A DNA stretch of 31,777 nt from a virus (IMGVR_UViG_3300032296_003542:1-31777), one strand, 5' to 3'. Positions 4,209-20,343 are shown, counted from the first letter of the stretch. Numbers and translations are program-made. Notes: generated by a model not told the origin, from the letters alone.

Positions 4209-4688
4209 ATGCTTACATATTTTCTACCTGGCTCTAACAATTACAAGATAAGAACAGCACAAATACCTTCTGGAAGCAACTTTTTAAGAGTTGATTTGCA
4301 GAATATGCTAACGAATGATTCTTACTCCATCTTAAATAGTGGAAGTCAATGGTCATACGACCAATGCGAAAGTATAGTTAACATATCATTTAACTTAAAT
4401 ACTTTGATTGGTGTAAATGTTGCAGATGAGTATAGAATATCATTAATACCTGGTATAAGCTCTTCAGCAGTAGCACTTACTTATCAAGACCCTGTATTTC
4501 ATGGTTCACTACAAGTATTTGCATCACAAAGTATAAGTAAACCTGAATATATAAATCAGATACCGGTTGAAGATGAATTTGTAAGTAATGCTAGCACTAA
4601 TACATTTGTATATTGGGACCAGACACCCAGTCCTACTACTACAACCACATTATCACCTACAACAACAACAACAACGACAATACCATAA
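4209..4688 (+). CDS. hypothetical structural protein with Pro-Thr C-terminal tail
   Basis: 159 residues. Residues 1 to about 138 look like a compact beta-rich domain (MLTYFLPGSNNYKIR, WSYDQCESIVNISFNL). The last ~20 residues switch abruptly to a Pro-Thr run (PTTTTTLSP, then TTTTTTT-IP), the same low-complexity type that forms the linkers of the two adhesins at 10766-14848. Here it is terminal rather than a linker, so it is a candidate for modification or a flexible tether. The gene is first in the unit that carries the portal (3 nt gap to the portal ATG). No family recognised; head or neck association is inferred from position only. Confidence 0.65.
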   Translation: MLTYFLPGSNNYKIRTAQIPSGSNFLRVDLQNMLTNDSYSILNSGSQWSYDQCESIVNISFNLNTLIGVNVADEYRISLIPGISSSAVALTYQDPVFHGSLQVFASQSISKPEYINQIPVEDEFVSNASTNTFVYWDQTPSPTTTTTLSPTTTTTTTIP

Positions 4689-4691
4689 TAT

Positions 4692-5990
4692 ATGAAAGGA
4701 CAAACAAATTTTTCAGTAGTAAATGTTGGTAATGGAAATAATTCATTACCATTAATTACAGAGGATACTAAAAGTAGATACGGATGGGTGCCATTTGGTG
4801 TTTACGGACAAGATGACTTTTTTGCAGCAGTTAATGTTGCGTATAATACTTCAACAACAAATGCTGCATGTATAGAAGGTATTGCAGATTTGATTTATGG
4901 TAAAGGATTATATTCCAAAGATGAAGCGTTTAATGATACCCTTAATCGTTTAATTCCACAGGAAGATGTTAAGAGATTAGCATTTGATTTGAAATTATTC
5001 GGTAATGGTGCATTACAAATCTATTGGAATGATGAGCATACCAAAATAATCAAAATGTATCATGTCCCTGTGCAAACACTTCGTGCTGAAAAGATATATG
5101 ATAATCCTCGTATACAAAACTACTATTATTGTGTAGATTGGACAGACCAAAGAAAGATAAGAGATAAAAAGAAAATACCTGCATTTGGAACTTCTTCAGA
5201 AAAGATGGAATTGTTTTGGTTAAAGAATTATTCACCAAATCTTTACTATTATAGTTTACCTGATTGGGTATCAGCAATGCAATTCGCTATTGTTGAAGCA
5301 GAATTATCAAACTTGCATATTAACAATATAGAGAATGGATTTTTGCCGATGGTAATGTTGAATATGAACAATGGGGTGCCAGCACCAGAGGAGAGACAAA
5401 CCATAGAAGATTTGCTATACGCAAAGTTTACAGGCACTAATAACGCCGGTAAGTTTATGTTATCCTTTAATGATGACCCTACAACAAAACCGACAATAGA
5501 TGTAGTAAACATTGATAACTTACATGAGAAGTTTAGATATGTTGCAGAATACGCACAAGATAGAATACTTGTAGGACACAGAATTACTTCACCTCTTTTA
5601 TTTGGTATTAGAACACAAGCAAATGGTTTCTCTTCACAAAGTGAGGAAATGAAAACAGCGTTTAGTATCTTACAAACAATGACAATATCTCCATTCCAAA
5701 ACTTAATCTTAAACTCATTAGATTACATTTTAAGAGAAGGTGGATATGGTGGTGAAATGGAATTATACTTTGAGCAATTGACTCCATTAGTAATCCTTTC
5801 TGAAACTGCGGAAGAAACAGGTCAGACAGTATCACAGGTAGAAGAAGATGTGAATGATAGTATGGAGAATCCAGCAACAACTGAAGACCAAACAACAACA
5901 GATGTGCAAGAAATTAAGCCTGACCAACCTATTGAGAAGTTTGTAAAGCCTGCACATTTTGAATTAGAATACGAAACACTTATAAAATAA
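4692..5990 (+). CDS. portal protein
   Basis: 432 residues, usual for a siphovirus portal. The N-terminal part has YNTSTTNAACIEGIADLIYG at 51-70 and DVKRLAFDLKLFGNGALQIY at 92-111, the wing and clip region. The block GHRITSPLLFGI at 295-306 followed by SSQSEEMKTAFSILQTM is the pattern seen before the crown in PBSX-type portals. The last ~60 residues are acidic and rich in Thr/Gln and are probably disordered. It would form the dodecameric ring through which terminase packages DNA. Unusually, it lies downstream of the capsid gene and about 8 kb (across the window ends) from terminase. Identification is by family resemblance. Confidence 0.85.
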   Translation: MKGQTNFSVVNVGNGNNSLPLITEDTKSRYGWVPFGVYGQDDFFAAVNVAYNTSTTNAACIEGIADLIYGKGLYSKDEAFNDTLNRLIPQEDVKRLAFDLKLFGNGALQIYWNDEHTKIIKMYHVPVQTLRAEKIYDNPRIQNYYYCVDWTDQRKIRDKKKIPAFGTSSEKMELFWLKNYSPNLYYYSLPDWVSAMQFAIVEAELSNLHINNIENGFLPMVMLNMNNGVPAPEERQTIEDLLYAKFTGTNNAGKFMLSFNDDPTTKPTIDVVNIDNLHEKFRYVAEYAQDRILVGHRITSPLLFGIRTQANGFSSQSEEMKTAFSILQTMTISPFQNLILNSLDYILREGGYGGEMELYFEQLTPLVILSETAEETGQTVSQVEEDVNDSMENPATTEDQTTTDVQEIKPDQPIEKFVKPAHFELEYETLIK

Positions 5991-5995
5991 ACAAT

Positions 5996-6508
5996 ATGGC
6001 AATAGCACTATTCATATCAAGAAACGATATAATTAAAACAACACCTTTACAGGGTGCAATTGATGCTGATGCATTACTTCCATTTATCTATACTGCACAG
6101 ATAAAGTATTTGAAAAACCTATTAGGTACAGTTCTTTACGATTATCTTGCTGCACAAATAGAAGTAGGAACACCATTTACTGGCAGATACTTTGAATTAA
6201 TGGATGATTATGTAAAACCTTGCCTTGTATGGTATACCTGTGTAGAATATATACCTTTTAGTTCTATTCAATTTAAATCTAATGGAGCTGTAAAACAACA
6301 ATCTGAACAAGGTGTTGCTCCAAGTAAAGCTGAAATAGATTATCTAAAAGCACAAGCACAAACAAATGCTGATTATTGGGCATTAAGATTACAAAACTTC
6401 TGTATTTCATATTCACAAGATTTACCACAATACTTAGAGTCAGTTGGTAATCAAACACAAATATATCCAGACCAAACAAATCAATACTTTGGCGGAATTC
6501 AACTTTAA
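5996..6508 (+). CDS. putative head-tail connector (DUF6712-like)
   Basis: 170 residues, mainly helical. The N-terminus (ISRNDIIKTTPLQGAIDADA) is followed by LLPFIYTAQIKYLKNLLGTVLYDYL, then another helical block (YFELMDDYVKPCLVWYTCVEY). This 'DADALLPFI..AQ..YL..LLG..LYD.L' layout resembles the small helical connector proteins found right after the portal in Bacteroidota phages. It would dock on the portal to extend the head channel. It follows the portal by 5 nt and precedes the next gene by 5 nt, so the genes are probably co-translated. The family name is from memory and not checked; the connector role is inferred. Confidence 0.6.
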   Translation: MAIALFISRNDIIKTTPLQGAIDADALLPFIYTAQIKYLKNLLGTVLYDYLAAQIEVGTPFTGRYFELMDDYVKPCLVWYTCVEYIPFSSIQFKSNGAVKQQSEQGVAPSKAEIDYLKAQAQTNADYWALRLQNFCISYSQDLPQYLESVGNQTQIYPDQTNQYFGGIQL

Positions 6509-6513
6509 TCAAT

Positions 6514-7062
6514 ATGAGTAATTACTTACAATATAATCAAGGAGTAAACTACACATTGTATTACAATGCGCTAGATTATTTTGAAACAATAATGAAAAAC
6601 CACCCACAAATTACGAAAGTAACTACGGGTGATATTCAGGATGTAGATGATAGAGAGTTTCCAATGTATCCTATGGGTAATGTAAACATTCTTTCTACTA
6701 CAATATTAGATAGTACAACTAAACATGAAATACAATTAGTAGTTGCTGATAAAATTAAGAATAAAAATAACGAAAGTAATTCAACTACAAACGAACAAAC
6801 AATTCCTTTCTTTGGTGTAGATGATTATGTTGATATTCTTGCAAACTCTTTAGCAATTATAAATGATTTAACTTCATTTACAGCATATTCAGTTGCAGCA
6901 TTTGATATAGATGGTGATATAGTATGTGAGCCATTTGTAGAAAGATTTAATAATGGATTAGCAGGACATGTTGCAACATTTACACTTGTAACACACAATA
7001 ATAGACCTAGATGTTTGTATGATTTACTTCCATCAGGCTCTTATCCTAATCCTGTTTGCTAA
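6514..7062 (+). CDS. putative tail terminator or head completion protein
   Basis: 182 residues. It contains a helical start (NYTLYYNALDYFETIMKNHP), a strand-rich part (DREFPMYPMGNVNILSTTIL, KHEIQLVVADKI) and a C-terminal strand-rich part ending RPRCLYDLLP. A length near 180 and alpha/beta content fit tail-terminator proteins, which cap the tail tube and join it to the head, and the position between a connector and a gp10-like gene fits too. The stop TAA overlaps the next start (TAATG at 7060-7064). No definite motif is seen, so the role is inferred from synteny. Confidence 0.5.
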   Translation: MSNYLQYNQGVNYTLYYNALDYFETIMKNHPQITKVTTGDIQDVDDREFPMYPMGNVNILSTTILDSTTKHEIQLVVADKIKNKNNESNSTTNEQTIPFFGVDDYVDILANSLAIINDLTSFTAYSVAAFDIDGDIVCEPFVERFNNGLAGHVATFTLVTHNNRPRCLYDLLPSGSYPNPVC

Positions 7063-7463
7063 TGGCGGTATCTAAAACACAATTACCATTAAAGAATGTT
7101 GCAAAGACCATACGAAATGTAGGGTCTAGTCTTGCACCTCGTTCTAAAAATGGAGGTAATCTTCGCAATACTATCCGTTCATATAATACACCAGATAGAA
7201 TGGTTAAAACCGATAAAAATGGTGATAGTAAAATTACATTCTTTTTTGCACCTCCAGGAGCAACTTATGGTAAGTTTTGGAATAAACCATACGGCAAAGG
7301 TAGTGGAACAACTGCAACAATCCGTAAAAGATATCCTCAACATTTTGATTATGCAGAAAAAGCATACAAAGACCCATCTGTTAAACAAATGATAAAGGAA
7401 TACGCAAACGCATTAGGTAAACAAATAGCATTAGATTTAAGAGAAGCGGTAAGAAAAGGGTAG
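7062..7463 (+). CDS. HK97 gp10-like small tail/neck protein
   Basis: 133 residues, basic, starting at the ATG that overlaps the upstream stop codon (TAATG). An in-frame TTG six bases earlier is less likely. The sequence has NLRNTIRSYNTPDRMV, a strand (DSKITFFFAPPGATYGKFW) and a C-terminal helix with Lys/Arg (LGKQIALDLREAVRKG). That order resembles the HK97 gp10 and tail-completion group found between connectors and tail genes. It closes the portal unit; the next unit starts with a new late-motif copy. Confidence is moderate because the family is highly divergent. Confidence 0.5.
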   Translation: MAVSKTQLPLKNVAKTIRNVGSSLAPRSKNGGNLRNTIRSYNTPDRMVKTDKNGDSKITFFFAPPGATYGKFWNKPYGKGSGTTATIRKRYPQHFDYAEKAYKDPSVKQMIKEYANALGKQIALDLREAVRKG

Positions 7464-7513: not shown

Positions 7514-8677
7514 ATGTCATTATCCATTAATCAAACACCAGCTACTTGTTCGTTAGCACAATCACCAATTATATTTTCTGTTTTTGAAAATACTGCGATT
7601 GTATCAAATATAGGATTTCAGTATGTTGCTGATTTATACTATTGGACAGGCAGTTTATCTGCTTCAGGCTCTCTTTCAGATTATACAATAGTGAAATATC
7701 CTAATACCTCATTCTATGGTATATTTGATTTGAATAGAATACTTAATTCAACTCTACAAGATTTAGCACAAGTTAATACATCAAATGTTGTTTATTTTGC
7801 GTGTGATTTCTATACACAATATCTTTCAGGTAGTTTATATGTAACAGGCTCTCATCTAAAATCAGATGTTTATAAAGCATTAGATGGATATGCATTATTT
7901 CAAGAGCCAATTGGACAACCAATAAGTTCTAAAACACCCCATTGGCCTTTAATGACAGATGGCCCTGCAACTCAATCAGCATTTACAGAAAACACAGGTA
8001 TAACTGGAGTTTATGTAGGAACTGCAAATAGTGGCTCACAACCAAATAGATTAAAATATACTTCTGCATCTCAAACTGCATTTATAACTCTGAGTGGTAG
8101 TATATCTTCATCACAACAAATACAAACATATCCCATAGGGCCTTCGCAAGCAGGATTTCCATTGAGTGGAAGTTTTACTTCTTATACTATACAAGCACAA
8201 ACAGGAAGCACGGATTTAGGACAATCAATTAAATTTGATATAGTTTGTAAGCAAAAGTATCCTAATGTAAGAATTAAATGGAAAAATAGATATGGTCAAT
8301 TTGATTGGTTTAACTTTGATATGATAAATCGCCAATCATTTAATACAGAAAGGAGAACATACCAGCCACAACTCGGCACATGGTCATCTCCTACATTACA
8401 ATATAATAATTACGATAGTTCCACTCTCAATTATATAGCAGACTCCAAACAATCAATTTCAGTGCAAACAAACTGGGTTGATGAAGCATATAATGAAATA
8501 TTTAAGCAATTATTAGTATCAGATGAAATCTATTGGATTTATGATGAAGCAACTAATGATTTAAGACCTATCACTATTAATACTCAATCAATAACATTTA
8601 AGACGGGCGTTAATGATAAAGTGATACAATATGGATTTGACTTTAATTGGGGACAGAACTATAAATTGATAATCTAA
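7514..8677 (+). CDS. putative distal tail / tail tip protein
   Basis: 387 residues, rich in Ser, Tyr and Asn. The N-terminal half is beta-rich (FQYVADLYYWTGSLSASGS) and the C-terminal half has YPNVRIKWKNRYGQFDWFNF followed by INRQSFNTERRTYQP. This pattern of a 'K.RYGQ.DWFNF' strand pair with a later beta domain is one I associate with baseplate or tail tip proteins of Bacteroidota phages. It overlaps the next gene by one base (TAATG at 8675-8679), which supports a joint assembly. It heads the tail tip and adhesin unit, behind late-motif copy 3. The role of joining tube to hub is inferred. Confidence 0.5.
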   Translation: MSLSINQTPATCSLAQSPIIFSVFENTAIVSNIGFQYVADLYYWTGSLSASGSLSDYTIVKYPNTSFYGIFDLNRILNSTLQDLAQVNTSNVVYFACDFYTQYLSGSLYVTGSHLKSDVYKALDGYALFQEPIGQPISSKTPHWPLMTDGPATQSAFTENTGITGVYVGTANSGSQPNRLKYTSASQTAFITLSGSISSSQQIQTYPIGPSQAGFPLSGSFTSYTIQAQTGSTDLGQSIKFDIVCKQKYPNVRIKWKNRYGQFDWFNFDMINRQSFNTERRTYQPQLGTWSSPTLQYNNYDSSTLNYIADSKQSISVQTNWVDEAYNEIFKQLLVSDEIYWIYDEATNDLRPITINTQSITFKTGVNDKVIQYGFDFNWGQNYKLII

Positions 8678-10764
8678 TGGGAGTAACATCTACGCAAGGA
8701 TTTGCATTTAAGTTAATTGCCAACGGCACACAATTAGACCTGTTTGCTGATGAGGAAATATTTGTTTCCGATAATGTAACAGGCTTATTTGATATTGGTG
8801 TTTTACCTGCTGACTTTACTCGTCAAATTACAGTACCTGGCACAAAGAAAAATAACGCATTCTTTGAGCATGTATATGATATATCAATAACTAATCCATT
8901 CCTATTTGCAACAAATCAAAAAGTTCCATGTTATTTGGACTTTGATGGAATTTATTTAGCTGATGGATACTTACAATTAAATAAAGTAAATGTAATTGCA
9001 AATAAGTTTATTGATTCATATGAAGTGACTATTTATGGCACTTTATCTTCATTTGCAAGAACGATAAATAGAGCATTTTTAACCGATTTAACAGGCTCTC
9101 TTTCCCAATATAACCATACCTCCTCTTTATCAAATATAACCTCTTCTTGGGGTGGTAATTTGTTTAATGGCGATATTGTATACCCATTAGCTGAATACGG
9201 ACAACAGATAAGTTATACACCTGAAGAAAATCAGTTTGGTATAGATACACCATCCGGGTCTTTATGTGTGCAAGATTTCAAACCTGCTATTAGAATTAAA
9301 AAAGTATGGGATGCAATATTTGATTACGCAGGATATACATATTCATCATCATTTTTAGACCAATCATTTTTAGATAATGTGTACATGGTCTGCAATAATC
9401 AATTGAGATATCCAGTATACGATAGTATCAATTTAGAAACATATGGATTATTTAAAATATCACCATTATCTGGAAGTGGAACTGATATATTATTAAATGC
9501 ATCAACAGTAACACCATTTCCATATTTTAATATACAAGAAAATCAAGGTGGACAATTAGATACATCTTTAAATTATACATTAGGATTTACAACACAATTA
9601 AGAGGTGAATTACAATTAAACTTTGAAATAAGTGCAAGTGGAACACCAGGAGCAAGCGGATATCCTACATTTGATTTAATTGTGAGTGGTAGCAGTGGAA
9701 GTGCAACTGTACCATTAACTAATATTAACAATTTTATGTATGATACGGCAATATACAATGTAAATACAATTAGAACACAGAAGTTTGAATTATTAACGCC
9801 GTTTAATACTACAACATTACCAGCTGGGACATATAAATTCTATATAAAATACATTAAAAATGGTGATACTAACTTTAATGTTATTCTTAACCCTGCTAAT
9901 AATGTAAAAGGATATTTGAGCATAACAAAAGTAAATCAAGGTGGAGATGGATTGGTAATTAATATAGGCAAAAATATGCCATTCGGAACAACAGGCATTA
10001 AAATGATAGATTTTATTAAAGGTATACAACAGAAATTTAATTTAGTAATTTATCCTAATAAAACTAGAACATTTGAGTTTATAGTTGAAACATTTAATGA
10101 TTGGTATAAAAGAGGTGAAATAAAAGATTTTAATAAATTTATTAATTTAGATAAAAAAATAGAAGCAATTCCTGCAAACAATCTTGCTGTAAATAAATTA
10201 AACTTTGGTGATACATTGGATGGTGATTATCTTTCTCAACAATTTGCAAAACAAGAAAATAGAGAATATGGTAAATCATACTATGTAGATACTGAAAACT
10301 TTTTCTCACAAGGAACATTTGAAGTTAAGACTACTTTAGCAAGTTCTCCATTACTTAGAATAGCAGGAACTGGTGAATCTGGTAGTGCATTATTAAAGAG
10401 AACAGGATTCCAAGCGTTTGCATCATTATTTACAACAGGCTCTGATGGTAGTGAAGCACAGGCAACAATAGATGCAAATTCAGAACAAATAGTTAATGCA
10501 ACTGCAACATTATATGGACCAGGTAGTACAACAGATACTGACCCTATAAGTGGATTTGCATTTAGAAGTGTACAAGAAGGAACTATAATTAGTTTCTTTG
10601 CAACACCTACTGGTGACTCTGGCCCTACTACAATAGAATTTAAGAAAATTGATGATAGTGGTACTACGATACTTTCAACCGCTTCTACATATAATTATAC
10701 TGTAACGGCTGGTGATATTTCTCAAACAACATTAAACTTTACAGCAGAAGTAACTTCATCATAA
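8677..10764 (+). CDS. putative tail hub / tail-associated protein
   Basis: 695 residues. The N-terminus (about 1-130) includes GLFDIGVLPADFTRQITVPG and TKKNNAFFEHVYD, a pattern common at the start of large tail tip proteins in this phage group. The middle has IKKVWDAIFDYAGYTYSSSF and, at about 435-460, MIDFIKGIQQKFNLVIYPN, resembling hub domains of the gp27/Tal type. The C-terminal 150 residues are Gly, Ser and Thr rich (TASTYNYTVTAGD). It likely forms the trimeric tail tip. No lytic or peptidase motif is recognised. Start overlaps the upstream stop; the next gene begins one base after its stop. Confidence 0.55.
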   Translation: MGVTSTQGFAFKLIANGTQLDLFADEEIFVSDNVTGLFDIGVLPADFTRQITVPGTKKNNAFFEHVYDISITNPFLFATNQKVPCYLDFDGIYLADGYLQLNKVNVIANKFIDSYEVTIYGTLSSFARTINRAFLTDLTGSLSQYNHTSSLSNITSSWGGNLFNGDIVYPLAEYGQQISYTPEENQFGIDTPSGSLCVQDFKPAIRIKKVWDAIFDYAGYTYSSSFLDQSFLDNVYMVCNNQLRYPVYDSINLETYGLFKISPLSGSGTDILLNASTVTPFPYFNIQENQGGQLDTSLNYTLGFTTQLRGELQLNFEISASGTPGASGYPTFDLIVSGSSGSATVPLTNINNFMYDTAIYNVNTIRTQKFELLTPFNTTTLPAGTYKFYIKYIKNGDTNFNVILNPANNVKGYLSITKVNQGGDGLVINIGKNMPFGTTGIKMIDFIKGIQQKFNLVIYPNKTRTFEFIVETFNDWYKRGEIKDFNKFINLDKKIEAIPANNLAVNKLNFGDTLDGDYLSQQFAKQENREYGKSYYVDTENFFSQGTFEVKTTLASSPLLRIAGTGESGSALLKRTGFQAFASLFTTGSDGSEAQATIDANSEQIVNATATLYGPGSTTDTDPISGFAFRSVQEGTIISFFATPTGDSGPTTIEFKKIDDSGTTILSTASTYNYTVTAGDISQTTLNFTAEVTSS

Positions 10765-10765
10765 T

Positions 10766-12910
10766 ATGGCAGCAAATTCAATATATATTCCAACATTTAT
10801 AGGTAGTATTACATACGCTCCGGTAAGAGTATTGCCACACATATACTTTTATAATGGTACAAAAGATACTAATACATATTTCATTGGAGGATATGGTGCA
10901 ACAACTTCATCTTTGAATATTGCATCTCAATCTGCTTTTCCATATTTTGACAATTATAGTGGTAACACACCAACAACAGAAAGTTTATCTCTTTTGTTTA
11001 ATAATGAAACTTCAGTATATGGAGAAGCACCAACTGCATCATTGTATACAACTTATTGGGAAAAATATGTATCATTACTTTATAATCCAAGAACTCGTTT
11101 ATTTAACTGCGAAGGTATAATTCCTCTTGCAGATTATTTTAAAATGGAATTGAATGATATAGTAGAATGGAGAGGAAACTATTATCATTTAAGAGCAATA
11201 AATGATTATAACTTAAAAAATGGAGAATGTAAAATTCAATTATTAGGACCGTTATTAGAAGATGTAATTACAAACATATTGCCAGAATTGCAGTGTGCAT
11301 TTGCATTTACTCAAAGTATTGCAACTCCTACGACTTCAACAACTTTGGCACCGACTACAACACTAAGTCCTACAACGACAACACTTAGTCCTACAACGAC
11401 AACACTTAGTCCAACTACTACAACACTTAGTCCAACTACGACTACGGTAGCTCCAACGACAACAACTTTGGCACCAACTACAACACTAAGTCCTACAACG
11501 ACTACATTGGCTCCAACTACTACAACAACTACTGCAAATTGTAATGATTGTCTTGATTATAGAATACAAATAATTGGTGGTAGTGGATTAAGAGGTAGAG
11601 TTGATTATACGGATTGTATTACTAATCAATCAAGAAGTTTTACTATATCAAGTCAAATTCAAAGGAGATTTGTTGGTAAAAATCCAGTATATGTTCCATT
11701 AGGTGGAGGAGGAAGTGTAGTTGGGCCAGCAAATCAGGGAACTGCTTGGATGGTTCCAGAAAATGTAAGTATGTGTAGTCCTATGAGTTATACAACATGT
11801 AGTTTATATCCTTATACAGCAAGCCAAAGTGGTGGAACTGTTGGGTTTTTCTATTATTCATATGTTGATGCATCGGGTAGTTATGTTCAAGTTGATGATG
11901 ATTACTATGATGGAACTCCAAGAGTAATGCAACAAGGTTGTTATGCTGTTGGTGCATTCCCTATACATTCTAGTCGTTCTTATAGTGGAAGTTGTGCAAC
12001 AAATCCAAATTGTCCACCAACTACAACTACTACTTTAGCACCAACTACTACTTTAGCACCTACAACTACTACGACTACATTGGCACCAACTACTACAACT
12101 ACATTATCACCTAATACTTTTAGAGCAGTTGGTTGTTGTGACTCGGCATCTTATATTGTAGGATGGACAGCTGGATTTAGTGCAATTAACGCAACATTTT
12201 ATAATGCGGTTGAGAATACATGTATGACTATTGTTGAAAATGTTATTTCACAATCTGCATCATTTACAATTACAGGAGGCAATTTTAATACTTATGTTTA
12301 TGGATATGGTGATGACCAATGTGCAAGATGTATTAGTTTAAGACCCGCACCTTGTCCACCGACAACTACAACACTTGCACCAACTACAACGACATTAGCG
12401 CCAACTACTACAACGACATTAGTTCCAACAACCTCAACAACTCTGTCACCAACTACAACTACAACTACAATATCAGGCAGTTGTTCAACATGGCAAATAA
12501 TCAATTCAAGTCCTTCATTGGGAGGTCAAGTAACTTATGTTCCTTGTGGTGGAGCTGGATATAGAAATTATTTTATAGCAAATAGTTCTTCAGCAAGCCT
12601 TTGTGTTCAATCTGCACAAATAGAAAATATTGCAGGATTTGCATCTTCTTCACTTACTAATTTAGGAACTCCGTGTACCTCTTCATTACAAGATTGTATA
12701 AGTTATACAATTTCAAATAGTGGTGGAACTCAATACACTTATAGTGGTAAAGATTGTTCAAATTGTGCAACTTCATTATATAATATAAATGCAGGAGTGA
12801 CTGTGGTAAGATGTTTTGTTTCAGGAACATTCACAACTTCATTCCCATCATTTGTAACTGCAACCGCAGGAGCTAATTGTAATGTATCAGGAAGTGGTTG
12901 TCCAATATAA
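10766..12910 (+). CDS. modular adhesin with Pro-Thr linkers and Cys-containing domains (1)
   Basis: 714 residues. The N-terminal ~180 residues (PTFIGSITYAPVRVLPHIYF, EGIIPLADYFKMELNDIVEW) look like a tail-docking domain. Then come Pro-Thr linkers at about 189-255, 418-450 and 531-570, made of PTTTT plus LS, LA or VA. Between them are Cys-containing beta domains: CNDCLDYRIQIIGG with VDYTDC; AVGCCDSASYIVGWTAG; CSTWQIINSSPSLGGQVTY followed by CISYTISNSGGTQYTYS. These share a 'C..Y.I......V.Y..C' layout and probably derive from one ancestor. The gene follows the tail hub, so it is probably a tail-tip receptor-binding protein. The linkers are mucin-like and precede a glycosyltransferase cassette. 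No enzymatic motif is seen. Confidence 0.7.
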   Translation: MAANSIYIPTFIGSITYAPVRVLPHIYFYNGTKDTNTYFIGGYGATTSSLNIASQSAFPYFDNYSGNTPTTESLSLLFNNETSVYGEAPTASLYTTYWEKYVSLLYNPRTRLFNCEGIIPLADYFKMELNDIVEWRGNYYHLRAINDYNLKNGECKIQLLGPLLEDVITNILPELQCAFAFTQSIATPTTSTTLAPTTTLSPTTTTLSPTTTTLSPTTTTLSPTTTTVAPTTTTLAPTTTLSPTTTTLAPTTTTTTANCNDCLDYRIQIIGGSGLRGRVDYTDCITNQSRSFTISSQIQRRFVGKNPVYVPLGGGGSVVGPANQGTAWMVPENVSMCSPMSYTTCSLYPYTASQSGGTVGFFYYSYVDASGSYVQVDDDYYDGTPRVMQQGCYAVGAFPIHSSRSYSGSCATNPNCPPTTTTTLAPTTTLAPTTTTTTLAPTTTTTLSPNTFRAVGCCDSASYIVGWTAGFSAINATFYNAVENTCMTIVENVISQSASFTITGGNFNTYVYGYGDDQCARCISLRPAPCPPTTTTLAPTTTTLAPTTTTTLVPTTSTTLSPTTTTTTISGSCSTWQIINSSPSLGGQVTYVPCGGAGYRNYFIANSSSASLCVQSAQIENIAGFASSSLTNLGTPCTSSLQDCISYTISNSGGTQYTYSGKDCSNCATSLYNINAGVTVVRCFVSGTFTTSFPSFVTATAGANCNVSGSGCPI
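11329..11532 (+). repeat. Pro-Thr coding repeats in adhesin 1
   Basis: Mostly 21-bp units encoding PTTTT plus two residues. Two consecutive units are identical at the DNA level (AGTCCTACAACGACAACACT, starting at 11368 and 11389); the rest mix ACA, ACT and ACG so that the protein stays constant while the DNA diverges. Shorter arrays lie at about 12018-12117 and 12358-12474. Confidence 0.85.
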
Positions 12911-12921
12911 AAACTATTAAT

Positions 12922-12931
12922 TTGTTAAAAA
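12922..12931 (+). promoter_or_regulatory. degenerate late motif (TTGTTAAAAA)
   Basis: One mismatch to the motif, but only 3 nt before the ATG at 12935, unlike the 6-18 nt of the others. It may be chance in an AT-rich 24-nt gap. Confidence 0.25.
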
Positions 12932-12934
12932 GAT

Positions 12935-14848
12935 ATGCCAGACATTCAAAGGATAATAACAATAACAGCACAGGGAGCTAATTCCGGCCCTTATTACGAT
13001 GTATATTGGTCAAACGATTGTATAACCTATACCCTTGCAACCGATGGAGATAATGTTTATTTACCTTCTATTGGCTCATCTGTTTATGTTACTATGCCTG
13101 ATACTGCATGTTGCATAAAATTAATAAATTTATCAGTAGGTTGTTTATTAAATGAGGTGATATTAAATTTCTGTCCTACTACGACAACTTCTACTACTTT
13201 AGCACCTACAACTTCTACAACTACTCTTACGCCTACAACTACGACTACATTAAGTCCAACGACTACTACAATAGCTCCTACGACTACTACAACATTAACA
13301 CCAACCACAACGACTACACAATGTCCTTGTGTTGAAAGTGTAACACTAAATGTAACAACTGCAGGAACTTTTGAATTTACAGATTGTTGTGGTACACCTC
13401 GTCAAACAAGTGTTCCTCAAAACTCTTCATACTTAGTAGATTATAGCACTGATGGTTGTATCAATATTAATACATTTGGTGGAACAGCTGAATACACGGT
13501 AGTTTCTTATGGTGCATGTTGCACTCCAGTTTGTCCTACTACTACGACAACATTAGCACCTACTACTACAACTACTTTAGCTCCAACAACAACTACCACT
13601 TTAGCTCCAACTACGACAACAACTCAGCCGCAATTCATACAAGTTGAATTATGTGGAGGTGGAGATGGCCCTTATATTATAACAAGGGGTAGTGGTGACT
13701 CACCATCTGGTATTGGACAAGCATTTAAGTTAACAGGCTCATATTCAGGATTTAATGGTATAGATTGCTGGGAAGTATTAGACTCTGCTGCATCTGGTCC
13801 TGCTGATTATACGAATGTAGGATTTGGAAGTGTATTTAGCAGTTGTGCAGCTTGTGTTCCAACTACAACAACATTATCACCTACTACAACTACTTTGAGT
13901 CCAACTACGACCACAATAGCACCTACTACGACTACTTTGAGTCCAACTACGACTACATTGGCACCAACTACAACTACGACAACTACACCACCAACTATCT
14001 ATTCAGTAGAACCTTGTGGTGGTGGACAAGGTCCTTATAAGATAACTTATGGAACTGGCGATTTACCTTCAGGTATTGGACAAGCATTTAAGTTAAACTT
14101 AGCAGGTAGTCCATTTAATGGTGTAGATTGTTGGGAAATATTAGAATACCCTGTTGCAGGTCCTGCTGACTATGAAGCGGTTGCATTTGGTAATGTATTT
14201 AGTAATTGTGCAGCGTGTGTTCCTACAACAACTACATTAGCACCGACTACAACTACACTTAGTCCTACTACGACTCTTGCTCCTACAACTACTACAACTA
14301 CATTAGCGTGTGAGTGTTGGACAGTTGTGAATGAAGATACGGTAACAATAAATTACACAGTAACAAATTGTGATGGAACAGAACAATCTCCAAACTTAAC
14401 AGCAGGAAGTGTTAGAAAGCATTGTATTAAAGGTGGTACTGTAATTTTAGTTAATTCACCAGAAGGTGGATTATTAGGTGAATACGATTGTAATCAAACT
14501 TGTACAGTAGCAAATGATTGTCCTGATTGTTCACCAACAACTACTACAACTACTATTGCACCAACTACAACCATAGCACCAACAACTACGGTAGCACCAA
14601 CGACAACTACAACCGAACCGCCACCAGCGTATAATTACTATACATTTACAGGTTGTAATGGTGGTAGCACGGATTATAGAAGTATATTAAGTTTAGCATT
14701 GAATGATGTATATACATTCCAAGCATATCCACCAGATAGAGCTTGTTATTATATTTCAGATATAAATGCCCCTGTAAATACAAATGACCTACCAACAATT
14801 TATGGGCCGTTGGCGGATTGTTTAGATGAGAATTGCCAGCAGTTATAA
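12935..14848 (+). CDS. modular adhesin with Pro-Thr linkers and Cys-containing domains (2)
   Basis: 637 residues: an N-terminal domain (about 1-80; MPDIQRIITITAQGANSGPY), then five Pro-Thr linkers (about 80-128, 201-230, 309-352, 430-458, 535-562) separating Cys-containing domains. Two neighbouring domains are clear tandem paralogues: ELCGGGDGPYIITRGSGD... and EPCGGGQGPYKITYGTGD..., both containing PSGIGQAFKL, DCWE and CAACVP. Others (CPCVESVTLNVTTAG; CECWTVVNEDTVTINYTV) share a 'C......V.....C.G' layout with domains of the upstream adhesin. It is probably a tail-tip adhesin working with its neighbour. The many cysteines are odd for a protein assembled in the cytoplasm and may pair after release. 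Receptor-binding role is inferred from position and modularity. Confidence 0.7.
   Translation: MPDIQRIITITAQGANSGPYYDVYWSNDCITYTLATDGDNVYLPSIGSSVYVTMPDTACCIKLINLSVGCLLNEVILNFCPTTTTSTTLAPTTSTTTLTPTTTTTLSPTTTTIAPTTTTTLTPTTTTTQCPCVESVTLNVTTAGTFEFTDCCGTPRQTSVPQNSSYLVDYSTDGCININTFGGTAEYTVVSYGACCTPVCPTTTTTLAPTTTTTLAPTTTTTLAPTTTTTQPQFIQVELCGGGDGPYIITRGSGDSPSGIGQAFKLTGSYSGFNGIDCWEVLDSAASGPADYTNVGFGSVFSSCAACVPTTTTLSPTTTTLSPTTTTIAPTTTTLSPTTTTLAPTTTTTTTPPTIYSVEPCGGGQGPYKITYGTGDLPSGIGQAFKLNLAGSPFNGVDCWEILEYPVAGPADYEAVAFGNVFSNCAACVPTTTTLAPTTTTLSPTTTLAPTTTTTTLACECWTVVNEDTVTINYTVTNCDGTEQSPNLTAGSVRKHCIKGGTVILVNSPEGGLLGEYDCNQTCTVANDCPDCSPTTTTTTIAPTTTIAPTTTVAPTTTTTEPPPAYNYYTFTGCNGGSTDYRSILSLALNDVYTFQAYPPDRACYYISDINAPVNTNDLPTIYGPLADCLDENCQQL
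13625..14220 (+). repeat. tandem duplicated adhesin domains
   Basis: Two ~78-residue copies, about 13625-13858 and 13988-14220, share CGGG-GPY, PSGIGQAFKL, F-NG-DCWE, AGPADY and CAACVP, and are separated by a Pro-Thr linker. DNA identity is well below protein similarity, so the duplication is not recent. Confidence 0.8.
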
Positions 14849-14865
14849 AACAAAATCACTTGCCT

Positions 14866-14875
14866 TTGTTAAATA
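14866..14875 (+). promoter_or_regulatory. late motif copy 4 (TTGTTAAATA)
   Basis: Exact copy, 15 nt before the first glycosyltransferase ATG (14891). It indicates that the cassette belongs to the late, structural programme. Confidence 0.6.
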
Positions 14876-14890
14876 ATAAACGAATGGCAT

Positions 14891-15859
14891 ATGAATGGCA
14901 TACAAATCTATCCAGATAAAAATTTAAGATTTATCTGTGCACAACCGGCAACAACCTATTATGTTTGGCAAGTAGAAACAATGATTAACAATTTTATTGA
15001 AATGGGAATCAATCCTAATTTCATTGATATTGTATGTTGGAAGCAGAATGGTATAATCCCTGAACAATGGAATAAACTGCGTAATCATTACAATTATGTT
15101 CGTTTCTTTTTCTATGATGATACAAGAGAAACAAAACATTACATTAGTTCAATAAGACCAAATATCTTAAAGCAACATTTTACTGCTTACCCTGAATTAC
15201 AAAAAGAAGCGATATTTTATCACGACTCCGATATCATATTCACTAAACCTATTTCAGAATGGATATCTCAACAAATGATAGTTGATGATAATTGGTATGG
15301 TAGTGATACTCGTTGGTATATTGCACACTCTTACATTTTAAGTAAAGGACAAAACATTATTGATAAGATGTGTGAGATAATGGATTTGCCTGAAGAGTTA
15401 ATAAAAGAAAATGAATTAAATGCAATAGGTGCACAATATCTTATGAAAAATATAGATGCAGCATATTGGGATAGAGTAGAAAAAGATTGTGAACAATTAT
15501 TCAAACAAATTACAGAATTAAATAATCAGTTAAAAGCTGCAAATCCTACATACCACGAATTACAAATATGGTGTTCAGATATGTGGGCTGTATTGTGGGG
15601 TGCGTGGAGATTAGGATATAAAACAATTTGTGCACCTGAATTTGATTTCAGTTGGGGAACTTCTTCTGAAGAGGAATATCACAGATTAAACATTATGCAT
15701 AACGCAGGTGTAACAAATGCAGATAGTGGATTATTTTATAAACCACAATTTATGTATGAATTACCATATGAGAAACCATTAGAGATAAAAGAAGGAACAG
15801 CAAGTAAAAAATATTGGGAAAGTATACAAAAAACAGCAAAGAAATCATGTTTACTTTAA
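14891..15859 (+). CDS. GT-A-type glycosyltransferase, DxD
   Basis: 322 residues. After a Rossmann-like start (NLRFICAQPATTYYVWQVET), the segment AIFYHDSDIIFTKPISEW carries a DxD motif (Asp112-Ser-Asp114), which in GT-A enzymes binds the metal and nucleotide sugar. Later parts (NAIGAQYLMKNIDAAYWDRV; IWCSDMWAVLWGAWRLGYKT) recall the Ser/hydroxyproline O-glycosyltransferase-like group, but that link is from memory. No signal peptide or membrane segment is seen, so it is probably cytoplasmic. The ATG at 14884 is out of frame and stops after ten codons. The gene overlaps the next glycosyltransferase by 13 nt. Acceptor is unknown; the Pro-Thr linkers of the adhesins immediately upstream are the obvious candidates. 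Confidence 0.7.
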   Translation: MNGIQIYPDKNLRFICAQPATTYYVWQVETMINNFIEMGINPNFIDIVCWKQNGIIPEQWNKLRNHYNYVRFFFYDDTRETKHYISSIRPNILKQHFTAYPELQKEAIFYHDSDIIFTKPISEWISQQMIVDDNWYGSDTRWYIAHSYILSKGQNIIDKMCEIMDLPEELIKENELNAIGAQYLMKNIDAAYWDRVEKDCEQLFKQITELNNQLKAANPTYHELQIWCSDMWAVLWGAWRLGYKTICAPEFDFSWGTSSEEEYHRLNIMHNAGVTNADSGLFYKPQFMYELPYEKPLEIKEGTASKKYWESIQKTAKKSCLL

Positions 15860-16833
15860 AACCAATTTGGTTCTATTGGGATGGGCCAATATCAGAAAGC
15901 AGATTACAAATCCTAAAAGACTCAATTTATTCTACAAGAGTATTTAACGAAAATCATTTTATTTGTTTGGTAAGCAATACACTTACTAAAGACCATTTTG
16001 ACCCAAAGTATTATATCAATGTAATGAAATGGGATGAAACTATATTTGATGGATTACCATTAACACCTGAAAGAATACAAAAATATAAACATGCTCACCC
16101 TCGCGAGTTATCAGATTTAATGCGTTTAGTTTTATTGTATCAATATGGTGGAAGTTATGTAGATACTGATGATTTGTGTATAAAACCTATGAGCTTTACA
16201 CCAAATTTGATTTGTAGAAGTTATGACCCGCATACTTCTTTTTACAATAAAGTAACAGATGATATGTGTGTGCCTGGAAAAATCAAAGAAATTGAGGGTT
16301 TTGAGCACATAAATACCTTTCCACGCAACGATTGTTGGCAAAATTGGCAAGAAAAATCCACTTTTGTCAAAGAATTATTGTGGAATGATAAGTTTGTAAA
16401 TGCAGAGCATGTAGTTTATATAGGTGATGATTGGAGTTGGCAATCTCTTACAAATGAAACAATAAATAAAAGATTGGATGGTTGGAAAACAGAATGGAAT
16501 TATGCTTTAACTTTACTTTACTTATACGAAGATTTTGTTTCTGCAAGTTCTTTTTGGGATAGATGTCATCATGGTGGTGAAATGTGTCAGTTATGGCAGA
16601 ATTTACCAAATGTAAAAGATTACGAATGGGGATTTTATAAAACAGATAGAGAAACTGCACTTGCATTCTATAATGTAGTGTGTGAAAAATATCCAAATCT
16701 TTCTCATATGTGGTTGCATAGTAAAGATATGAAAGCGGAATGGTTGATAGACCAATTAGATGAGAATGAAACCTATTCAGTATCTACATGGATTTATGAC
16801 CACATTAAACAAAAGATAAAATGTTTTCAGTAA
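15847..16833 (+). CDS. GT32-type glycosyltransferase (Gly_transf_sug, DxD)
   Basis: 328 residues from the ATG at 15847, which overlaps the upstream stop by 13 nt. The diagnostic block is SDLMRLVLLYQYGGSYVDTD at 89-108, followed by D109: an SD..R...LY.YGG.Y.D.D motif as in Och1-like GT32 enzymes, with Asp106 and Asp108 as DxD. The N-terminus (MFTLKPIWFYWDGPI) fits the 'K.I..W' start of this family. The C-terminal half is Trp-rich and not recognised. No membrane segment, unlike eukaryotic Golgi relatives. It overlaps the next gene by 13 nt. An earlier in-frame TTG at 15814 is less likely because it would overlap the upstream gene by 46 nt. Confidence 0.8.
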   Translation: MFTLKPIWFYWDGPISESRLQILKDSIYSTRVFNENHFICLVSNTLTKDHFDPKYYINVMKWDETIFDGLPLTPERIQKYKHAHPRELSDLMRLVLLYQYGGSYVDTDDLCIKPMSFTPNLICRSYDPHTSFYNKVTDDMCVPGKIKEIEGFEHINTFPRNDCWQNWQEKSTFVKELLWNDKFVNAEHVVYIGDDWSWQSLTNETINKRLDGWKTEWNYALTLLYLYEDFVSASSFWDRCHHGGEMCQLWQNLPNVKDYEWGFYKTDRETALAFYNVVCEKYPNLSHMWLHSKDMKAEWLIDQLDENETYSVSTWIYDHIKQKIKCFQ

Positions 16834-17420
16834 TCATACCTACACTTTGGAAATCTAAATACATACATACCTCTATTTCTCAATTAGAGGAGCATCCTGA
16901 GGTTGGTGAGATAATTTTGATAGATAACTCAACCGAAGTAAAAGAATTGAATAACGCAAAGATATGCCACATTAGAGAAGGAATTAACACATATGTTAAC
17001 CCTGCATGGAATAAAGGAGTGCGTTTAGCGAAATACGAAAACCTTTGTATTGCGAATGATGATTTGGTATTTGATACAAAAATATTAGATTGGATAAAAC
17101 CACATATGGATTTAGGTATAATAGGTATGAATGTAGCAAATTATGATAAATGGAGAACCGAATTTAACCCTGTTATAGAAAAAATGGAAGGTAGAGATTG
17201 GGGATGGGGTTGTTTATTCTTTGTAAAAAAAGATAAATGGGTAAACATACCTGATGATTTATTGATTGCATGTGGTGATGATTGGTTACTAAAACATATA
17301 GATGGATACAAAATATCAGGCTTACCATTACAATATCAACAAGTAAGTATAACTTCTATATTGCCACAATTTTTTGGTTTGCAATTAACGGATATAAAAA
17401 ACTTTGAGAAATACAAATGA
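16821..17420 (+). CDS. short GT2-like glycosyltransferase
   Basis: 199 residues. It begins with the GT2-type strand and loop MFSVIIPTLWKSKYI, then EIILIDNST at 30-38, NPAWNKGVRLAKYENLCIAN at 60-79 and NDD at 79-81, where GT2 enzymes carry DxD, then WGWGCLFFVKKDKW. It is shorter than a typical GT2 enzyme (about 250-300) and ends soon after the acceptor-side strands, so it may be a minimal catalytic domain or work with a partner. It overlaps the genes on both sides (13 nt upstream, ATGA with the downstream gene). Confidence 0.7.
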   Translation: MFSVIIPTLWKSKYIHTSISQLEEHPEVGEIILIDNSTEVKELNNAKICHIREGINTYVNPAWNKGVRLAKYENLCIANDDLVFDTKILDWIKPHMDLGIIGMNVANYDKWRTEFNPVIEKMEGRDWGWGCLFFVKKDKWVNIPDDLLIACGDDWLLKHIDGYKISGLPLQYQQVSITSILPQFFGLQLTDIKNFEKYK

Positions 17421-18094
17421 TTTCAGTTTTAACACTTACATATCAAAGGCATCACTTATTACAAGAAGCAATCTATTCGTTTATAAATCAAGAATACGAT
17501 GGTGAAAAAGAAATGCTTATCATTAACGACTCACCTATTGTAGAGTATAGAATAAATCACCCTGAAGTAAAAATAATAAACCTTAACAAAAGATTTAGCT
17601 CTGTTGGTAAGAAATTAGAGTGGGGATTTAAGCAATGTAAAGGTGATTGGATATATCGTTTAGATGATGATGATTTAATAACGCCATGGGCATTAGAATT
17701 GCAAAAACAATATAGAGAAGATAATCCAAATAAAGAGGTATATCGTTGCCAAAAACATTACTTTTTTTCACAAAATGAATATCAAGGACTTTCTGACTCA
17801 ATTAATAATGGAAATTGTTACTCAAAGGAATATATTAACCGAATACAATTTTTAGATAAATCTATTGGTGAGGATAATCACATGACATTCTTTCACAATG
17901 CAGATATGCATATTGGTGATAAAGGTAAATATTCTATGATTTATAGATGGGGAATGGGTGTATATCACATATCAGGTATGGGTGATAGACCAAATGAAGA
18001 GATATATGAAATTACAGATAAAACTAATTCAGAAACAGGCATAATTTACTTAGAACCAAAATTCGGAAGTGATTATTGGGCACAACTACCATAG
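17417..18094 (+). CDS. GT2-family glycosyltransferase
   Basis: 225 residues. Family marks are the start MISVLTLTYQRHHLLQEAIY, MLIINDSP at 33-40 (nucleotide contact), and GDWIYRLDDDDLITPWALEL at about 76-95 with the acidic run at 83-86 in the DxD position. Near the end, WGMGVYHISGMGDR may belong to the acceptor side. No membrane segment. The start overlaps the upstream stop as ATGA, so the cassette is translationally coupled throughout. It is the last of four glycosyltransferase genes; a late-motif copy follows. Confidence 0.8.
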   Translation: MISVLTLTYQRHHLLQEAIYSFINQEYDGEKEMLIINDSPIVEYRINHPEVKIINLNKRFSSVGKKLEWGFKQCKGDWIYRLDDDDLITPWALELQKQYREDNPNKEVYRCQKHYFFSQNEYQGLSDSINNGNCYSKEYINRIQFLDKSIGEDNHMTFFHNADMHIGDKGKYSMIYRWGMGVYHISGMGDRPNEEIYEITDKTNSETGIIYLEPKFGSDYWAQLP

Positions 18095-18118
18095 TATCCG
18101 TTATTTATCACATTCGGT

Positions 18119-18128
18119 TTGTTAAATA
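18119..18128 (+). promoter_or_regulatory. late motif copy 5 (TTGTTAAATA)
   Basis: Exact copy, 9 nt before the small ORF at 18138. TAGTATCCGTTA (18092-18103, beginning with the upstream stop codon) lies 15 nt upstream, as at copy 3. Confidence 0.6.
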
Positions 18129-18137
18129 CAAAAAACA

Positions 18138-18296
18138 ATGATAAAGAATATTGTTGACCTTCTATCGTTAGGTGATTACTACGGAGAAACTAAAAGAATT
18201 GATATTGCAAAAGGTGCATATGAATTACCCACAACATGGAAAGGAACTTGGAAATTAATAAAACGAATAATCCATGGCAGAAAAAGTAGAAGTTGA
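18138..18296 (+). CDS. small ORF ahead of the tape measure gene
   Basis: 52 residues (MIKNIVDLLSLGDYYGETKR, then IDIAKGAYELPTTWKGTWKL, basic end IIHGRKSRS). It starts 9 nt after an exact late-motif copy and overlaps the tape measure ATG by 23 nt in another frame, so translational coupling with that gene is plausible. No family recognised. It could be a small tail assembly factor or a leader ORF. Support is the motif spacing, the A-rich start context and protein-like composition; the length is short enough that chance is possible. Confidence 0.5.
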   Translation: MIKNIVDLLSLGDYYGETKRIDIAKGAYELPTTWKGTWKLIKRIIHGRKSRS

Positions 18297-20343
18297 TATA
18301 GAAGTCAATTCTAATATTGAACCATCGTTAAAACAATTGCGTGAATTAAAGAAGCAATTGAAAGAGACTGCTGCTGGTAGTGCTGAGTTTAAAAAACTAT
18401 CTGCGGAAATTAGAGATGTAGAAGATGCAATTGCCGGTGCCAAATTAGGTGCTGATGACTTTGCAGGCGCATTAGAAGCTGCACCAGGTCCTGTTGGTAA
18501 ATTATTTCAGGGATTAAAGAAAGTAGAACTTGCAACCAAATCATGGGGTGCTGCATTAAAAGCAACCGGTATTGGTTTAATTGTATCTTTAGTTGGTGGA
18601 TTAGTTGCTGCATTCTCACAAACAGAAGGCTCATTAAAGAAACTAGAACCATTATTAATTGGTTTAGAAAAGATATTTGGTGGTATTGTAGAAATATTCA
18701 CACCACTTTTAGATGCATTTTTAGAAATGGCATTAAAAGCATTACCTCACATAACAGATGGTATTGGTGCATTTTATTCAGTTTTAGTAGGATTTGCTAA
18801 TTTTGTTAAGAATACTTTGGTTGGTGTTGGTAAAATTCTTAAAGGTGTATTCACACTTGATTTTGATGCAGTAACAGAAGGATATAATCAAATTAAAGAT
18901 GCAATACCTAATGCAATTGATGCAGGGGTTAAGGCATTTGGAAGATATGAAGCAGGAACGAAGAAACTAACTAAAACTGAAAAAGAAAATCTAAAAGAAA
19001 GAGGTGATGCAAATCAGAAAGCTTTAGAGGAAAAGAAAAAGCAGATGGAAGCTCAAGACAAACTTGACATCGCTGCATTAGAAAAACTTAAATCAGAAGC
19101 ATTAGCAATTGCACAAACTGAACAAGAAAAGTTTGATATTGAAAAACAATTTGCAGATAAATTATATCAATTAAGATTAAAAGACTTAGAAGATAAACAA
19201 GCTTTAGAGAAAAAGGGTAGTGCGGAATACAAAGCATTACAAGCCGAAATAATTCAATTACAGGCAGAAAAGATTGCAAAGGATAAAGAGTTTGCAGCTA
19301 AACAAATTGAACTTACAAAAAATACAGCAGAGGAATTAAAGAAAACTAATGATGAAGCATTAGCAAAAGAAGAATTAGACTTAAACTTACAAAAGGAAAA
19401 AGGATTAATAGACGAAGCTCAGTATCAACAAGCATTGTATGATATGAGAGTTAAGTATGCTAATGATAATAGTGATTTAATTAAAGCAGAAATTGACTTA
19501 CTTAAATTTAAGAATGAGGAAAAGAAAAAGAAATTACAAGAGGAAAGAGAAATTACTGCATTAGGTATACAATCACAGATAGAAGAATTAGATAGATTAA
19601 ATTCAAGAGTAGAAGGTGATTTTGCACAAGACTTAGAAAGACTTACACAAAAGAGACAATTACTTGCAGACGCAGAAGCAAATGAATTAAAGAATACTGA
19701 ACTTACTGAATTACAAAAGACGGAAGTAAGGAACAAATATGCAAAAGAAAGAGAGAATATAACTACTCAAGAAGTTGCAATTGAAAAAGCTGCACAAGAT
19801 GCTAAAGTTGCATTACAAATGGAGTATGCGGATTTATTTGCATCATTCGGACAATTACTTGGACAAATAGCAGGAAAGAATAAAGCAGTTGCAATCGCAG
19901 GATTGTTAATTGAAAAGGGAGCAGCAGTTGCAAAAGTTGTTACACAAATGATGACTGTACCTGCAATCTTACCTCCTGGTATTCCTAACCCAGCATATAT
20001 ACCAGCTAGAATCGGTGGTGCATTATCTATTGCATCAATCCTTGCATCAACTGCAACAGGTATTCAACAAATCAATCAAGCTGCTGCAAGTGCGGGAGTA
20101 TCGGGTGGAGGAGGAGGAAGTGCAGGAGCATCAACACCACCACCATCATATGCAGGTGCACCGACATCAATACCAGCACCACAAGTTCAAGCATCACAAG
20201 GTATGAATGCAAGTTCACAAATTGCACAAACAATAGGTGCAGCTCAATCTCCAATTCGTGCTTATGTTGTATCACAAGATGTTAGTTCACAACAAGCTTT
20301 GGATAGGAGAACAAATGTTGCTGCAACATTTAGTGGTGGATAA
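18274..20343 (+). CDS. tail tape measure protein
   Basis: 689 residues. The N-terminus is helical (MAEKVEVDIEVNSNIEPSLK, LRELKKQLKETAAGSAEFKK) and then come hydrophobic stretches (ATGIGLIVSLVGGLVAAFSQ, IFGGIVEIFTPLLDAFLEMA). Residues about 225-500 are a long Lys/Glu/Gln-rich coiled coil. A second hydrophobic part (VAIAGLLIEKGAAVAKVV; GGALSIASILASTATGIQQI) and a Gly/Ser/Pro-rich tail follow. This is the usual layout of a siphovirus tape measure, which sets tail length and leaves with the DNA. Length suggests a tail near 100 nm. No lysozyme or peptidase domain is visible. The tail assembly chaperone is far away, near 29640, instead of just upstream. Confidence 0.88.
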   Translation: MAEKVEVDIEVNSNIEPSLKQLRELKKQLKETAAGSAEFKKLSAEIRDVEDAIAGAKLGADDFAGALEAAPGPVGKLFQGLKKVELATKSWGAALKATGIGLIVSLVGGLVAAFSQTEGSLKKLEPLLIGLEKIFGGIVEIFTPLLDAFLEMALKALPHITDGIGAFYSVLVGFANFVKNTLVGVGKILKGVFTLDFDAVTEGYNQIKDAIPNAIDAGVKAFGRYEAGTKKLTKTEKENLKERGDANQKALEEKKKQMEAQDKLDIAALEKLKSEALAIAQTEQEKFDIEKQFADKLYQLRLKDLEDKQALEKKGSAEYKALQAEIIQLQAEKIAKDKEFAAKQIELTKNTAEELKKTNDEALAKEELDLNLQKEKGLIDEAQYQQALYDMRVKYANDNSDLIKAEIDLLKFKNEEKKKKLQEEREITALGIQSQIEELDRLNSRVEGDFAQDLERLTQKRQLLADAEANELKNTELTELQKTEVRNKYAKERENITTQEVAIEKAAQDAKVALQMEYADLFASFGQLLGQIAGKNKAVAIAGLLIEKGAAVAKVVTQMMTVPAILPPGIPNPAYIPARIGGALSIASILASTATGIQQINQAAASAGVSGGGGGSAGASTPPPSYAGAPTSIPAPQVQASQGMNASSQIAQTIGAAQSPIRAYVVSQDVSSQQALDRRTNVAATFSGG

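Follow-up and report, generated by a model that had tools for sequence, protein, structure and literature searches.

To our knowledge, glycosylation of the virion is established mainly for mycobacteriophages. According to reports citing Freeman et al. 2023 (PMC12363180 and PMC11256854), mycobacteriophages Che8, Corndog and Myrna use their own glycosyltransferases to glycosylate capsid and tail tube proteins. In these systems phage-encoded enzymes modify the phage's own head and tail proteins, and the Thr tags described here suggest that both are modified in the present case too. The two differ in that the proposed acceptor here is a Thr run and the hosts belong to Bacillota or Bacteroidota.

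We analysed a virus record (IMGVR_UViG_3300032296_003542:1-31777) of 31,777 bases, hereafter the window, with emphasis on the region 10766-18094. An earlier note on this DNA had proposed that the phage decorates Pro-Thr linkers in its own tail adhesins by means of an adjacent glycosyltransferase cassette. The genomic distribution and predicted fold of the first enzyme, GT1, support this proposal. We consider it very likely that GT1 puts sugars on Thr runs in virion proteins that the phage itself encodes, the acceptor to which the genetics points, and that GT2-GT4 then elaborate them. As in described systems of virion self-glycosylation, GT1 is a phage-encoded glycosyltransferase linked to virion structural genes.

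Comparison with Che8 gave no match at the level of the enzyme. The Che8 glycosyltransferases gp108-110 scored negative bit scores against a GT1 profile (E 0.04-0.14, in single-sequence searches), and a search of the whole Che8 record with the GT1 alignment, run without a positive control, found nothing. No Thr-run C-terminus was present on the Che8 capsid and tail proteins. From these sequence comparisons, the proposed system would work like the mycobacteriophage one but with a different enzyme family.

Gene organization of the locus

The features listed between 10766 and 20343 lie on the plus strand. ORF A (10766-12910), ORF B (12935-14848) and four glycosyltransferase genes (14891-18094) are located between the portal gene and a tape-measure-like gene (18274-20343). 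The four genes, GT1 (14891-15859), GT2 (15847-16833), GT3 (16821-17420; 199 aa) and GT4 (17417-18094; 225 aa), overlap and lie directly behind ORFs A and B, as the earlier note had described. The listed TTG start of GT2 at 15814 would give a 46-base overlap with GT1, and the ATG at 15847, with an overlap of 13 bases, is the more likely start. The sequence TTTGTTAAA occupies the gaps preceding ORF B (12921-12929), GT1 (14865-14873) and the tape-measure gene (18118-18126), and is a possible promoter or start element. The copy of a putative late motif reported ahead of the cassette is therefore present, but its enrichment is weak (5 copies vs 2.1 expected, a result seen in 6 of 100 shuffles). Elsewhere in the window, a DNA methyltransferase-like ORF (26984-27889) separates the terminase gene from the structural region.

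Threonine-rich linkers in ORFs A and B

ORF A (714 aa) consists of a conserved tail core, approximately residues 1-178, and an extension of Thr linkers and Cys-rich segments. ORF B (637 aa) is a second Thr-linker/Cys-rich protein of the tail module, and both are proposed glycan acceptors. The eight Pro-Thr linkers noted earlier were confirmed as three blocks in ORF A (A1, 11309-11551; A2, 11999-12124; A3, 12353-12490) and five in ORF B (B1, 13163-13333; B2, 13517-13633; B3, 13853-14008; B4, 14216-14323; B5, 14519-14623), with 17 and 23 PTTT units, respectively. These blocks contain 203 of the 287 Thr residues of the two proteins, and no Thr run longer than three was found in the other ORFs tested in the window. 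Codon patterns were distinct in 39 of 41 Thr runs, and identical adjacent Thr codons were rarer than in shuffled sequences (0.257 vs 0.371). The runs are therefore maintained at the protein level and do not represent a DNA repeat or microsatellite.

In relatives lacking the tags, the ORF A homolog is mostly a core of 172-191 aa (382 aa in locus L115) that ends where the Thr linkers of the window begin, and in most of them the tape-measure gene follows. In tagged phages this core and the tape-measure gene are separated by the extension with its Thr linkers, by additional ORFs, and by GT1 together with other enzymes; ORF B-like ORFs precede GT1 in relatives. The structure prediction for the ORF A core reached a pLDDT of only 38, so its role in the tail is assigned from gene position. 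Likewise, the function of ORFs A and B as adhesins is assumed from position, and the term "mucin-like adhesin" is best taken as descriptive.

GT1 is a predicted GT-A transferase

GT1, the proposed Thr O-glycosyltransferase, matches phrog_4417 over residues 13-315 of 322 (2.6e-61), a full-length profile match. Members of this family, also named "prophage pi2 protein 34", are annotated as hypothetical in nearly all matches. The family has no assigned function; its association with Thr tags and its predicted GT-A fold are first described here. No Pfam family, glycosyltransferase-8 included, was identified for GT1 or for any of 42 relatives, and phmmer searches with GT1 and GT2 and a GT1 profile search against PDB sequences returned nothing useful. 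Phages of Bacteroidota and Bacillota carry relatives with 20-76% identity, and one relative is found in an Arcanobacterium phage.

We predicted the structure of GT1 from 43 aligned sequences, its own and those of 42 environmental relatives, obtaining a model with pLDDT 95.6 and pTM 0.92. The predicted fold is GT-A of the retaining type, and the nearest structure was glycogenin (Z 15.1, 233 aligned residues, rmsd 3.5 Å, identity approximately 8%). Further matches were LgtC, the Skp1 galactosyltransferase, UGGT and LARGE1. All five are retaining enzymes, and glycogenin initiates a glycan on a protein. GT1 resembles glycogenin in predicted fold and in its DxD motif, but differs from glycogenin and other GT8/GT24-type enzymes in its identity of only about 8% and in its proposed acceptor, Thr rather than Tyr. 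Residues D112, D114, H270, G273 and K284 were invariant both in the alignment of 43 sequences and in a second one of 21, in which N271 of the HNAG...K motif varied. By analogy, the invariant residues would be the counterparts of two motifs in GT8-type enzymes, DxD and HxxG...K, and have catalytic roles. The DxD motif named in the earlier note is present. The note's comparison with Ser/Hyp O-glycosyltransferases may still apply, although GT1 gave no Pfam match and no such enzyme was among the structure matches listed. GT1 is best described as GT8/glycogenin-like by predicted fold, with no match to the Pfam glycosyltransferase-8 profile that would place it in CAZy family GT8 proper.

Since sugar transfer is indicated by similarity of fold and motif, at about 8% identity to known glycosyltransferases, GT1 might instead act on Thr runs in another way, by transferring a non-sugar group or by binding the tags as a chaperone-like protein with a glycosyltransferase fold. 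We give this only a slim chance, because the DxD aspartates, H270, G273 and K284 are retained throughout both alignments, and because other glycosyltransferases and methyltransferases follow GT1, as expected for the building of a glycan.

GT1 is associated with Thr tags on diverse virion proteins

We examined loci gathered by similarity search, which do not amount to a census. Among 80 metagenomic GT1 loci, an ORF with a strict Thr run lay directly upstream of GT1 in 31 and elsewhere in the locus in 17 more. Many of the remaining loci were short or came from phages of 56-70 kb, and several GT1 contigs of this size with no Thr-run neighbor encoded Thr-run tail ORFs elsewhere, far from GT1. Looser Thr-rich linkers were present in a few loci (L050, L076-L080), and no strict Thr-codon run was found in seven partial GT1 contigs of 20-50 kb. 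The linkers upstream of GT1 varied in sequence (PTTTTLAP, TTTTTTAGP, TTSTSTTS).

Among cultured phages, GT1 relatives with 20-38% identity were found in those of Enterococcus, Lactococcus, Staphylococcus, Lactobacillus, Arcanobacterium and Chryseobacterium. Each of the 21 named phages with GT1 that we examined has Thr-rich tails (strict Thr runs in 16), located on the major capsid protein, the major tail protein or a neighboring small ORF. In phage 1706 the capsid-protease ORF ends in T9-HHD and a tail protein in T10-HHD, and in iLp84 the capsid and tail proteins both end in TTTTTTTSK. The most divergent GT1 is that of LP65, a phage in which the repeat is a different one, ATTTETQTQTQ. Thr tags were present in all 36 Bacillota genome loci with GT1 (strict in 35), as short C-terminal tags typically on the capsid and tail proteins of one prophage. 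At least two ORFs were tagged in 35 loci, and in 15 of these all tags of the locus had identical last residues, compared with 1.8 after shuffling. The association with GT1 thus holds across differing linker sequences and unrelated virion proteins.

We also assembled sets of loci using a structural gene as the query, so that neither the tag nor GT1 was selected for. In total, 65 of these loci had both tag and GT1, 83 had neither and one was discordant. For the window's tail ORF (8677-10764), the relatives with a minimum of 8 kb downstream comprised 17 loci with both, 5 with neither and none discordant. A looser length limit gave 22 with both, 9 with neither and one with the tag only (L146, where the locus encodes a Thr-run tail ORF but lacks GT1). 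The counts for both and neither were 11 and 35 for the bIL285-type major tail protein, 3 and 11 for the phiFL1-type tail protein, and 29 and 28 for the iLp84-type major capsid protein, with no discordant locus in any of the three. Most capsid cores of the last set are 94-100% identical, and nearly identical capsids end either in QAKVLIPKP or in QAKVLVPGKTTTTTTSHG. There were 2, 1 and 2 tree-independent contrasts and a further 5, of which 9-10 of 10 agreed and none opposed; no single tree was significant alone, and pooling contrasts across trees is an inferential step. Among the Lacticaseibacillus phages examined, a Thr-rich ORF of 125 aa and GT1 lie between the capsid and adaptor genes of L461 and are absent from the tag-less L463. 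From these tagged and tag-less gene layouts, the Thr tag and GT1 appear to be gained and lost together as one module. The association between Pro-Thr tail genes and a glycosyltransferase for which the earlier note had suggested a survey is very strong for GT1, in these blind samples as well.

The reverse test was weak. GT1 was present in 8 of 62 loci picked by Thr-codon pattern, so Thr runs alone did not show the association. In GT1-less loci we tested 136 neighbors, and one glycosyltransferase family was among the 25 families listed. A strict Thr run occurred in 11 of 1,561 ORFs of such loci, several of them in short contigs ending near the ORF. Because Thr-run phage proteins in general have no glycosyltransferase nearby, the predictive element is GT1 and not the Thr run. 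Beyond the totals given above, one further locus (L495) combines an untagged capsid with a Thr-tagged tail protein (9816-10412) and no GT1 in the locus, and looks like a recombinant. In L190, three ORFs (4643-7255) end in 12-17 Thr, also with no GT1 in the locus; another tag-modifying enzyme is perhaps encoded elsewhere in that genome.

That Thr runs are widespread without GT1 is what would be expected if they were plain flexible linkers and GT1 were hitch-hiking cargo of the tail module with another substrate, such as other virion proteins or DNA; GT4 also weakly matches a phrog of glucosyl-HMC glucosyltransferases. However, in Bacillota the tag is found on different proteins (capsid, small head or tail ORF, tail tube), some encoded kilobases away from GT1, and its gains and losses still match those of GT1; the Thr-run ORFs of the 56-70-kb phages are likewise distant from it. 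We therefore regard the hitch-hiking of GT1 as highly improbable and favor its action on the Thr runs themselves.

Variable enzymes downstream of GT1

The other three enzymes were of the types proposed in the earlier note: Pfam identified GT2 as Gly_transf_sug (GT32-like, 1.5e-9) and GT3 and GT4 as GT2-family Glycos_transf_2 enzymes (5.9e-7 and 2.4e-14), and phmmer matched GT4 to the solved glycosyltransferase 6p61 (1.2e-6). PADLOC gave no defence match for GT1-GT4. The order GT1-GT2-GT3-GT4 is kept in L023, L050, L061, L068/L131, L069 and L084; L071 and L082 have part of GT2-GT4 or a different arrangement, and other GT1 loci lack these genes. In other relatives, GT1 is followed by GT2-family, GT32, GT6, GT11, GT25, GT29 or GlcNAc-type transferases, or by methyltransferases. 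Because GT2-GT4 are optional and the other enzymes vary among relatives, GT1 would be the constant core and the others a variable glycan-building set; GT2-GT4 make up an optional cassette that travels and probably extends the glycan. In two loci (L121:11724-14066 and L135:9001-10641) GT1 carries one or two fused SAM methyltransferase domains, which suggests that the virion glycans are methylated there.

Belonging to the GT2 family and weakly matching phrogs for O-antigen conversion and galactosyltransferases, GT3 and GT4 could also be read as part of a cassette that alters host surface glycans, in serotype conversion or superinfection exclusion, its location after the tail genes being incidental. 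The earlier note had offered this alternative. O-antigen conversion by gtrABC involves a membrane flippase and membrane glycosyltransferases, whereas GT1-GT4, as that note had stated, lack membrane-like segments (maximum 19-residue hydropathy 0.83), and no GtrA/GtrB-like membrane partner was seen beside the cassette. Furthermore, GT1 tracks Thr tags on virion proteins across phages of unrelated hosts. Modification of host glycans is therefore very unlikely, in contrast to modification of the phage's own virion proteins.

A chromosomal branch of the GT1 family

A further 38 or so genome loci, nearly all from Bacteroidota, encode GT1 relatives (31-42% identity) with no virion genes noticed nearby. 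These relatives are chromosomal, usually longer (about 450-590 aa), and often adjoin peptides with GG leaders (TIGR04149 in the 6 tested), LanC-like and thioredoxin-like proteins, as in RiPP maturation clusters of Bacteroidota. In L384-L419, L441 and L457, one of them a deltaproteobacterial MAG, the GT1 relatives lie beside GG-leader RiPP precursors and LanC-like and SPASM proteins, and it is possible that these loci make uncharacterised glycosylated peptides. The chromosomal branch is consistent with a family whose substrates include both ribosomal peptides and proteins.

Discussion

We propose that GT1 is a cytoplasmic, nucleotide-sugar-dependent transferase of predicted retaining GT-A fold, which would glycosylate Thr runs of the phage's virion proteins ahead of assembly, as the genetics suggests; the linkage is predicted to be alpha. 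In the phage of the window, the eight Pro-Thr linkers in ORFs A and B would serve as acceptors, and GT2-GT4 may lengthen the glycan or add branches to it. This would produce stiff tail stalks, coated with sugar, between small Cys-rich domains, with protease or antibody shielding, less aggregation and altered adsorption as candidate benefits.

We found no description of Thr tags as phage glycan acceptors in the open-access literature, and nothing relevant, in a mostly open-access literature, on glycosylation of tail proteins or on poly-Thr tags for the phages at issue. Many phages probably sugar-coat their own particles by a route previously undescribed. We think it fairly likely that poly-Thr is a portable glycosylation tag in phages of at least two bacterial phyla, with phrog_4417 marking any tagged virion protein, head and tail, and lineage-specific cassettes elaborating the glycan. 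On the same reading, the family also serves peptide natural-product clusters and has moved between phages and RiPP loci as a peptide Thr O-glycosyltransferase. If so, virion glycosylation would be widespread among phages infecting lactic acid bacteria, enterococci, staphylococci, bacilli and Bacteroidota. It could then be read from sequence as a phrog_4417 gene together with Thr-run tags. Cultured phages carrying the pair, such as Lactococcus phages 1706 and CHPC971 and Lacticaseibacillus phages iLp84 and PLE3, have been identified here. This would give a function to an unannotated enzyme family and explain the odd Thr tails of phage capsid and tail proteins.
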